From an uncultured Bacteroidota bacterium (GTDB lineage: Bacteria > Bacteroidota > Bacteroidia > Chitinophagales > Chitinophagaceae): a stretch of DNA of 5,731 nt. Both the position numbers and the translations under genes were made by a program. Below the pieces are notes generated by a model. The model was given only the letters and a program-made list of their open reading frames with translations. It ran no database searches and was not told the origin of the DNA. The stretch spans positions 1-5,731 of the forward strand of contig CAMLGP010000230.1 in NCBI GenBank assembly GCA_946479535.1, read 5' to 3'. Below are positions 4,534 through 5,731 of this stretch, piece by piece. Numbering within the stretch: position 1 is the first letter of the stretch; every line of letters begins with the position of its first letter.

Positions 4534-5463
4534 ATGAAGAAACTCGCCCTCTTTACCCTCCTCTTCCTGGCCCTGAATGCCTCGTCTCAGAGCGTATTTG
4601 GCTATTGGTATGGCAAAGGGAGCGTAAAAACAAAGACGGGCAATGACTACAACAATTATCTCGTAGAGCTGATCCTTTCTCCGGAAAAGGGATATGTGAA
4701 GGGTATCCTGAACTATTATTTTAAGAATACTTACCGAAGCACCCAGGTTAAAGGCAATTACGATCCAAAAACACGTCAGTTAAGCCTGTATAACATTCCT
4801 GTTACTTACCACGGTTCACTGGCCAGTATGGAAGTGGATTGTAATATGACGCTGCAGGCTTCTCACCGTATCGCTAAAAACGGAGATAACCTGGTAGGTG
4901 CATTTATTGGACTTCCTGAATACAAGTACATGTGTACTGATATCAATTTCAACCTGGGTAAAAGTGCTGATATGAGCAAACAGGATTCCGTTCTGAAGGC
5001 ATTGCGTGAGTTCAAGGAAACCAACCAGGTGTGGAAACCTTCCATGTTTGATACGCTGGCTGCTGTAAATGTTGTGCAGAGGAAAGTTGTCAACTATGTG
5101 ATTGAAGACCGGTTCAAACAAAGAGAGAATGTAGTTGCCAATGAAATTGAGGTAGCATCTGATTCCATCAAGGTAGACTTTTATGATAATGGAGAAATAG
5201 ATGGTGATTCCATTTCCATATTCTTCAATAAACAGCTGCTGGCTTTCTCTCAGAAATTAAGCTCTCGTGCCATTCATTTCGATCTTAAACTGGATTCTAC
5301 CAAAGAGGTTCAGGAGTTAAGTATGTATGCTGATAACCTGGGATCCATTCCACCCAATACAGCCCTTATGATAGTTACGGATGGGAAAAAACAGCAGGAG
5401 ATCCGTCTCACAAGTAATCTGGATAAGACGGCAACCATTCGCATTCGCAGAAAAAAGAAATAA
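4534..5463 (+). CDS. secreted protein of unknown function, two-part beta-rich architecture
   Basis: A 309-residue protein that I do not recognise as a named family. Residues 1-18 are a clear Sec signal peptide (MKKL, hydrophobic core, cleavage near NASS/Q) with no lipobox cysteine, so it is likely periplasmic or released. Residues about 22-145 are rich in short alternating hydrophobic/polar strands and aromatic residues (FGYWYGKG at 22-29), suggesting a beta-sandwich or barrel; Cys pairs here could form disulphides. A charged, probably helical linker (about 150-200) leads to a C-terminal part with YDNGEIDGDSIS (217-228), an FFNKQLL strand and NLGSIPPNTALM (268-279). That DNGxxDGDxI...GxIPPNTALM pattern resembles a C-terminal module I associate with other secreted Bacteroidota proteins; its acidic loop could bind a metal, which is inference. 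The end, RIRRKKK, is very basic. ATG at 4534 gives the complete signal peptide. The stop codon lies inside the first 76-base repeat. Confidence 0.8.
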   Translation: MKKLALFTLLFLALNASSQSVFGYWYGKGSVKTKTGNDYNNYLVELILSPEKGYVKGILNYYFKNTYRSTQVKGNYDPKTRQLSLYNIPVTYHGSLASMEVDCNMTLQASHRIAKNGDNLVGAFIGLPEYKYMCTDINFNLGKSADMSKQDSVLKALREFKETNQVWKPSMFDTLAAVNVVQRKVVNYVIEDRFKQRENVVANEIEVASDSIKVDFYDNGEIDGDSISIFFNKQLLAFSQKLSSRAIHFDLKLDSTKEVQELSMYADNLGSIPPNTALMIVTDGKKQQEIRLTSNLDKTATIRIRRKKK

Positions 5464-5532
5464 TGTATGGTTACACTGCGGCAGTTTGTGTCCCGTAAAC
5501 TACTGGTTTGTGAGACACGAACCAAGGCGATG
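5457..5532 (+). repeat. 76-base tandem repeat, copy 1 (two hairpins)
   Basis: The first of two adjacent 76-base units, differing at 4 positions. It begins at GAAATAATG, so it includes the last Lys codon and stop of the preceding gene. Hairpin A is 5483-5490 with 5494-5501 (8 pairs, two of them G-U, loop TCC). Hairpin B is 5505-5512 with 5516-5523 (8 pairs, one G-U, loop AGA). The unit closes with AAGGCGATG. The four arms are versions of the same 8-mer AGTTTGTG in alternating orientation, so a single long hairpin (5484-5492 with 5514-5522) is an alternative fold. Confidence 0.9.
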
Positions 5533-5608
5533 GAAATAATGTATGGTTACATTGCGGCAGTTTGTGTCCCACAAACTACTGGTTTGTGACACACGAACCA
5601 AGGCGATG
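5533..5608 (+). repeat. 76-base tandem repeat, copy 2 (two hairpins)
   Basis: The second unit, about 95% identical to copy 1. Hairpin A is a perfect AGTTTGTG/CACAAACT stem (5559-5566 with 5570-5577, loop TCC). Hairpin B is GGTTTGTG/CACGAACC (5581-5588 with 5592-5599, loop ACA). An alternative inner stem CACAAAC/GTTTGTG with a TACTG loop is also perfect. Differences from copy 1 are at 5552, 5571, 5572 and 5590. Confidence 0.9.
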
Positions 5609-5623
5609 ATCACTACTTACTCT

Positions 5624-5699
5624 GCTGTGGTTAGTGAGGCGCGTGAATGAACGCGCGGGAACCAATTCGTGAATCATGAACCATGGCGATGATCACTGC
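5624..5699 (+). repeat. diverged third relative of the 76-base unit
   Basis: The end of copy 2 and its flank (5595-5616) recurs at 5678-5699 with 2 mismatches in 22 bases, sharing the core GGCGATGATCACT. Upstream, TGTGGTTA and GGC recall the start of the 76-base units. The first-hairpin position is taken by a different stem, GCGCGT (5639-5644) with ACGCGC (5651-5656) and loop GAATGA. A second GGGAACC/GAACC-containing part follows but lacks a strong stem. It appears to be a divergent family member rather than a third exact copy. Confidence 0.5.
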
Positions 5700-5731
5700 T
5701 ACAATGCTTTCTTCAGTCCTTTTTCTCCTCT
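5699..5731 (-). CDS. possible C-terminal end of a convergent gene (partial)
   Basis: Reading the minus strand from the right edge gives R-G-E-K-G-L-K-K-A-L followed by TAG at 5701-5699. A basic, amphipathic-looking end like this is plausible for a gene entering from the right, and the repeat cluster would then sit between two convergent genes. Eleven codons are too few to identify a product or exclude chance. Confidence 0.22.
   Translation of the reverse strand, partial: RGEKGLKKAL

Follow-up and report, generated by a model that had tools for sequence, protein, structure and literature searches.

A tandem array behind a Chitinophagaceae gene, probably formed of REP doublets whose GCC-tagged palindrome flanks RAYT transposase genes in relatives

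The tandem array analyzed here, located towards the end of a 5,731-nucleotide stretch of DNA (the window), is in all likelihood a tandem cluster of REP doublets of the REPIN/BIME type, composed of non-autonomous DNA palindromes that are dispersed in Chitinophagaceae. It belongs to the already known REP/REPIN elements tied to RAYTs and is not a new regulatory RNA. A first-pass annotation had left three options for this repeat, being a 3' end structure for the upstream gene, a REP-like family or a small RNA, and the second of these is well supported by dispersed matches to the palindrome and by its flanking of RAYT genes in relatives.

The window encodes an S9 peptidase, an AccD-like carboxyltransferase, SmpB and a 309-aa protein without a Pfam family, and it looks like a stretch of Chitinophagaceae chromosome. 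The closest AccD in the species collection has 89% identity, and a search for tRNA and tmRNA in the window found none. The window also contains a small lipoprotein-like ORF at 220-609 that lacks a Pfam match and carries a CNQANCH stretch, which we take to resemble a CX4CH haem c site. No plasmid match to 5457-5700 was found at E <= 1 in 72,556 plasmid records, and viral contigs gave no match to the exact doublet pattern. The gene upstream of the array (4534..5463, + strand) is an ORF for the 309-aa protein, which is of unknown function and has orthologues in Chitinophagaceae; relatives of up to 71.5% identity were found using tblastn and of up to 96% in a further search, with the eight best (89-96%) found on contigs no longer than 7.2 kb. 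The first 76-base unit of the array starts within this gene: its position 5457 completes a codon, after which come the terminal lysine codon (5458-5460) and the stop codon (5461-5463), which thereby lies inside the unit. As the orthologues have similar lysine- and arginine-rich ends, the genuine end of the gene is most simply placed in unit 1, with unit 2 carrying its duplicate. The final bases of the window would accommodate a frame on the minus strand that ends at 5699, with ten of its codons visible, and if that frame is real, the spacer behind the 309-aa gene is convergent.

The two tandem 76-base units called in the first-pass annotation were confirmed as head-to-tail repeats of 95% identity without indels (TRF score 276). 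Copy 1 (5457..5532, +) comprises the gene tail and spacer, the REP doublet and a GGCGATG end, and copy 2 (5533..5608, +) includes a second copy of the last seven bases of the gene (GAAATAA). Not mentioned in that annotation were the start of the unit within the upstream gene and a third, diverged unit at 5609..5691 (+, spacing 83). Each 76-base unit contains a REP-A on the + strand, a 3-nt gap and a REP-B on the minus strand that has its GCC facing outward. In this inverted pair REP-B is a clear match to the family and REP-A a weak one. REP-B is found at 5505..5528 in copy 1 and at 5581..5604 in copy 2 (both minus), with GCC tags at 5526-5528 and 5602-5604 in minus-strand reading; both copies are off by 1/21 fixed bases from the pattern GCCTTGGTTCGTG-N3-CACGAACC, with the consensus of 21 fixed bases giving that single mismatch being GCCTTGGTTCGTGNNNCACGAACC, and all 24 letters of copy 1 are identical to a copy in the related genome G144. 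REP-A, with a tag of GCG and not GCC, is found at 5483..5501 in copy 1 (+, 8-bp stem and 3-nt loop, 6/16 stem bases off the family consensus) and at 5559..5577 in copy 2 (+, perfect 8-bp stem, 4/16 off). The third unit has a REP at 5664-5687 (minus, GCCAT tag, 3/16 stem bases off) and a weak partner palindrome at 5629-5647 (+, 6/16 off). That unit also contains a G+C-rich palindrome at about 5638-5657, a poor family match that is perhaps of another REP type or an insertion.

The palindrome was found to be dispersed among relatives. Using a limit of two mismatches to the consensus, it occurred in 29/195 genomes of the related family set (drawn from the family of G021), with a reversed control pattern found in 0/195. 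Five of the REP-positive genomes held 8 to 46 matches each and the other 24/29 four or fewer, the richest being G070 with 46 matches, of which 20 were listed, as were 20 of the 22 for G076. When 23 related genomes were searched by similarity, the matches were weak, and some of them formed inverted pairs separated by about 600 bp. The copies counted for pairs, covariation, tags and spacers come from loci (L081-L215) fetched by their likeness to the window repeat, the REP pattern or RAYTs, and are as such a non-random sample. Using a simple ORF caller, 102 of 118 copies in relatives were placed in spacers, 12 within an ORF of at least 90 aa and 4 at edges, with the palindrome in relatives hence being short, dispersed and mainly extragenic, as are REP elements, which measure some 20-50 nt. 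When two copies lay at most 30 nt apart in relatives (n = 19), 14 of the pairs were tag-out, none tag-in and 5 in the same direction (p = 1e-5 for 14/19 against one in four), while gaps of 31-150 nt gave 3 tag-out, 5 tag-in and 11 same-direction pairs; a backwards control pattern had 5 matches on the same loci, compared with 134 distinct copies. Tag-out gaps in relatives were of at least 8 nt, compared with 3 nt between REP-A and REP-B. The doublet of the window itself was not found in any relative, the longest match being 49 bases when two candidates per genome were scored, a scoring that gives a low count (36/394).

Larger arrangements of the palindrome were also seen in relatives. One locus (L192) has a 66-bp tandem unit of REP and flanks, and another (L149, G188:C3, at about 1496-1843) has a REP that recurs, together with matching flanks, at a distance of 319 bp, so that tandem duplication linked to REPs takes place on a larger scale too. 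In a third locus (L128, G144:C1), two tag-out REP pairs at 483-590 and 1412-1519 lie about 930 bp apart and have similar A+T-rich 70-nt fillers, resembling a MITE-sized composite of the palindrome family.

A link to a transposase was seen directly in three of the relatives' loci (L101, L102 and L104), where a frame of 183-189 aa has the palindrome on either side. All three frames matched NF047646 REP_Tyr_transpos at 63-79 bits, just missing the cut-off of 80 bits, and two of three matched Pfam Y1_Tnp, below its cut-off. The JGI name of several relatives of this protein is REP element-mobilizing transposase RayT. A PDB search with a single RAYT protein found no chain; the best chain for a RAYT profile was 4er8, TnpArep (E 0.007), which was also the best PDB fold match (E 4e-8) of an AlphaFold model of a close RAYT relative (mean pLDDT 89.8), and which is the structure of a RAYT (TnpAREP) bound to a REP hairpin. 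In relatives, the palindromes consequently flank a gene for a Y1 HUH transposase, as is the case in a REP/RAYT pair (REPtron). The consensus motifs of the relatives' RAYTs are NHIH, WQ and YIHNNP (35 proteins, of 120 relatives listed), and subclass 2.6 is tabulated with NH[LIV]H, WQ, YIH[QN]NP and 179 aa in the text of PMC6006769, where it takes in the 40 Bertels group 5 sequences, most of them from Bacteroidetes. As judged from these motifs, the relatives' RAYTs are of subclass 2.6 (Bertels group 5), a placement by motif only.

The proximity of palindrome and RAYT was also evident in counts. Among 103 listed REP places, 12 had a RAYT-like frame at most 500 bp away with 0.025 expected, and all 12 were at RAYTs of at least 56% identity (at 6/16 such frames), with none at 59 more distant frames, the 56% line having been drawn after the list was seen. 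For these 103 places, as well as for the 102 copies (72 distinct) used below, which also take in copies from the 23 related genomes, palindrome matches on both strands were counted once, with the strand chosen by the analyst. REP-positive genomes made up 10/15 of those having a RAYT of at least 56% identity, compared with 19/180 of the others (p = 2e-6). In 7/10 of the best RAYT loci the palindrome was found on both sides of the RAYT, with loops of 3 to 5 nt and the gene placed by tblastn; L185, L188 and L189 had no palindrome within 500 bp of the RAYT, with L185 covered for only 138 bp on one side. RAYT relatives of the L101 protein were found in 51/195 genomes at E <= 1e-20, and a separate RAYT family search found RAYT-like frames in 20/23 related genomes, indicating that RAYTs of some sort are common. 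Genomes without a RAYT of at least 56% identity made up 19/29 of the REP-positive ones, including G070 with none at E <= 1e-20, genome completeness not being given. A cognate RAYT is presumably encoded in the window's own genome. As to variation in the palindrome near RAYTs, four loci (L181, L183, L184 and L187) have RAYT-flanking palindromes with 4-nt, not 3-nt, loops and an unchanged stem, and loop length may track RAYT lineage. A different palindrome, GGCCTGTG-N3-CACAGGCC, is found at about position 1393 of L189 near a RAYT of about 57% identity; it keeps GTG/CAC at the loop and is possibly a co-evolved REP variant.

The palindrome also has a conserved tag beside one side of its stem, as do REPs. 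The bases G, C and C were found at -5, -4 and -3 in 111, 113 and 111 of 118 copies, respectively, counts that are inflated since the strand was picked by its tag and 6/124 stems were left out for their worse tags. The layout of the GCC-footed palindrome is a pyrimidine-rich tract, GCC, two bases and GGTTCGTG-N3/4-CACGAACC. Membership in the GTAG REP superfamily was rejected, with GTAG and GTGG each found in 1/118 copies within 8 nt 5' of the stem and their reverse complements on the other stem side in 2/118 and 1/118, as was membership among the CGTC palindromes, with CGTC in 1/118 within 8 nt 5' of the stem and 0/118 on the other side. Among the papers listed in a text search of the literature for letters of the palindrome, neither of two 15-mers occurred, with a 10-mer alone matching papers that were unrelated by title (supplements being outside that search), and no literature on palindromic repeats or REPs in Chitinophagaceae was found among the matches listed. 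In the text of PMC12306157, palindromes in three Bacteroidota genomes are counted by general criteria, with no such consensus given there.

A covariation check across related copies had been proposed, and it showed that the stems are kept by compensatory change. In 55 distinct stems, 21 doubly changed Watson-Crick cells were found compared with 4.5 (sd 1.9) upon shuffling, with 0/2000 shuffles reaching 21, although these shuffles ignore the relatedness of the copies. Among 18 distinct copies having exactly two stem changes, 6 had both changes on the same pair, with 1.2 expected (p = 8e-4), and four of these 6 double changes yield a Watson-Crick pair. Compensatory change of this kind shows that the hairpin matters. 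With regards to strand the outcome was different, since single-sided stem transitions that keep G-T favored neither strand: 13 on the tag strand versus 16 on the other in 72 distinct copies (p = 0.71), and 25 versus 17 for single-sided transitions in the 55 distinct stems (p = 0.28). The claim that retained wobbles mark the + strand as the RNA therefore fails, leaving it with one pair of adjacent changes. That argument furthermore depends on the fold chosen, and in the window the REP-B wobbles are opposite to its tag strand while those of REP-A copy 1 are on its own tag strand. We infer a prior of about 1 in 4 for two adjacent stem transitions to keep wobble on a given strand, which makes the observation weak evidence.

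The four differences between the two 76-base units were as first described: C/T at 5476/5552, GT/AC at 5495-5496/5571-5572 and G/C at 5514/5590. If each unit is folded as two hairpins, with 8-bp stems and loops of 3 nt, G-U wobbles do replace A-U and C-G pairs on the + strand through the GT/AC change, and the loop position of 5514/5590 holds as well. The minimum-free-energy RNA fold is instead one long hairpin per unit, in which (as read from dot-bracket strings) G5514 pairs with C5492 in copy 1, a pair that is lost in copy 2. Likewise, the description of 5476/5552 as unpaired holds for C5476 in copy 1 but not for 5552, which is paired (U-A) in the minimum-free-energy RNA fold of copy 2. A sparing of pairing by all four differences was thus not confirmed, as two of the four alter pairing in the long RNA hairpin. 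Compared with shuffles, the RNA folds had z = -1.75 (copy 1) and -3.49 (copy 2) for the + strand and -1.89 and -2.74 for the minus strand. Folded as single-stranded DNA, the + strand of copy 2 had the two-hairpin form as its best fold (-13.8 kcal/mol, z = -3.86) and that of copy 1 gave z = -1.97. The minus strand, being the tag strand of REP-B, gave z = -0.24 for copy 1, no better than shuffles, and a moderate -1.86 for copy 2; these weaker minus-strand folds give no help to the tagged strand of REP-B as the recognized strand.

The rival explanation that survives best, although we regard it as improbable, is that the array gives the upstream gene a + strand RNA structure in its 3' untranslated region, functional as an mRNA stabilizer or terminator and duplicated because it was useful. 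The array does sit behind a stop codon, its RNA folds are stable (z = -3.49 for copy 2) and it holds one terminator-like site, at 5559-5577, compared with 0.4 expected; however, the tail of that site is formed by the gap and the start of REP-B. REPs of the palindrome family also lean to convergent spacers in relatives, with 18/74 compared with 58/467 in the background (p = 0.008), and they are somewhat fewer in divergent spacers (6/74 versus 65/467, p = 0.11), as determined using a simple ORF caller and with a different set, 80 accD loci, as background. Against this explanation, apart from the lack of strand bias in wobble changes and the occurrence of the same palindrome next to RAYT genes and at numerous other sites, stands the result for the orthologous gene. 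Within 300 bp after the stop codon, no REP-like match (at most 6/21 mismatches) was found in 58/58 testable loci, whereas the same 300-bp test gave 5 matches in the window; there were 59 orthologue loci, of which one was untestable as its contig ends too early, with loci whose best match ended before residue 290 excluded. A 3' end structure as a conserved feature of the gene is thereby disfavored, and the array is most simply a lineage-specific insertion.

We consider it very unlikely that the array represents a family of small or cis-regulatory RNAs transcribed from a promoter of their own. Covariation of the stem across the palindrome family would be expected of an RNA family as well, but no Rfam family matched at E <= 1 anywhere in the window, the single promoter-like site found (9/12) compares with 0.7 expected, wobbles favor neither strand, and neither the inverted flanking of a transposase gene nor tag-out pairing is a feature of RNA. 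It is equally improbable that an ordinary intergenic stretch having an accidental palindrome was by chance duplicated in tandem, for although the duplicated part includes a gene tail and spacer and may be functionless, the family matches in all three units (1, 1 and 4 mismatches of 21) contradict it, the window outside the units having as its single best match one with 7 mismatches.

For the cluster of REP doublets, we propose the following history. A RAYT acting in trans would recognize the GCC foot and hairpin on single-stranded DNA, and would once have placed a doublet behind the 309-aa gene. The doublet, together with a left flank from the stop region of that gene, would then have been tandemly duplicated by slippage or unequal recombination. 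Movement of the doublet as single-stranded DNA is here assumed from what PMC8266576 describes of TnpAREP in E. coli and elsewhere, and the duplication is likened to the REPIN clusters of Pseudomonas fluorescens SBW25, described in PMC3116915 as tandem repeats that take in flanking sequences. Any effect at the RNA level, such as 3' mRNA stabilization or weak termination, would be a possible but secondary by-product. A wider proposal, with about as much to be said for it as against it, is that the GCC-footed palindrome is the cognate substrate of RAYT subclass 2.6 and forms a third REP class beside GTAG and CGTC, with short tag-out doublets, including that of the window, being the mobile form in Chitinophagaceae.

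With these results, what had been guessed to be an RNA element becomes a family of DNA repeats that is defined and has a likely transposase. The REPs linked to RAYT subclass 2.6, called 'atypical' in the main text of PMC6006769, now have a concrete consensus and tag, and substrate recognition by this subclass becomes testable, for example as to whether GCC guides it as GTAG does E. coli TnpAREP. There is also a more general caution, in that the covariation and wobbles of a duplicated hairpin do not speak for an RNA where a dispersed palindrome explains them.

In comparison with known systems, the CGTC-tagged palindromes described in PMC3733652 are likewise short tagged palindromes of Bacteroidetes, but apparently lack a dedicated transposase, whereas the GCC palindromes adjoin one. 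The REP/BIME elements of E. coli with their TnpAREP also form inverse REP pairs, often in consecutive tandem copies according to the text of PMC8266576, but with GTAG and a bulged stem where REPs of the window type have GCC and an even stem. The SBW25 REPINs, as presented in PMC3116915, differ in having a GTAG foot and another sequence, where the window has a GCC foot and a shorter gap between palindromes; they differ also in that no RAYT is visible within the window. They are nonetheless alike in having inverted REP doublets (of which REP-A in the window is a weak match) that can form a long hairpin, in the compensatory changes of their hairpins, and in having RAYT genes nearby, which for the palindrome of the window is seen in relatives. 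With regards to subclass 2.6, the main text of PMC6006769 describes its REPs as atypical, with weaker structure and without GT[AG]G, whereas the GCC palindromes have 8-bp stems and a conserved GCC foot two bases off, and compared with that description such a clear foot and stem for REPs by RAYTs of the 2.6 type may be new. The two share flanking palindromes without GT[AG]G and the presence of further copies elsewhere in the genome.
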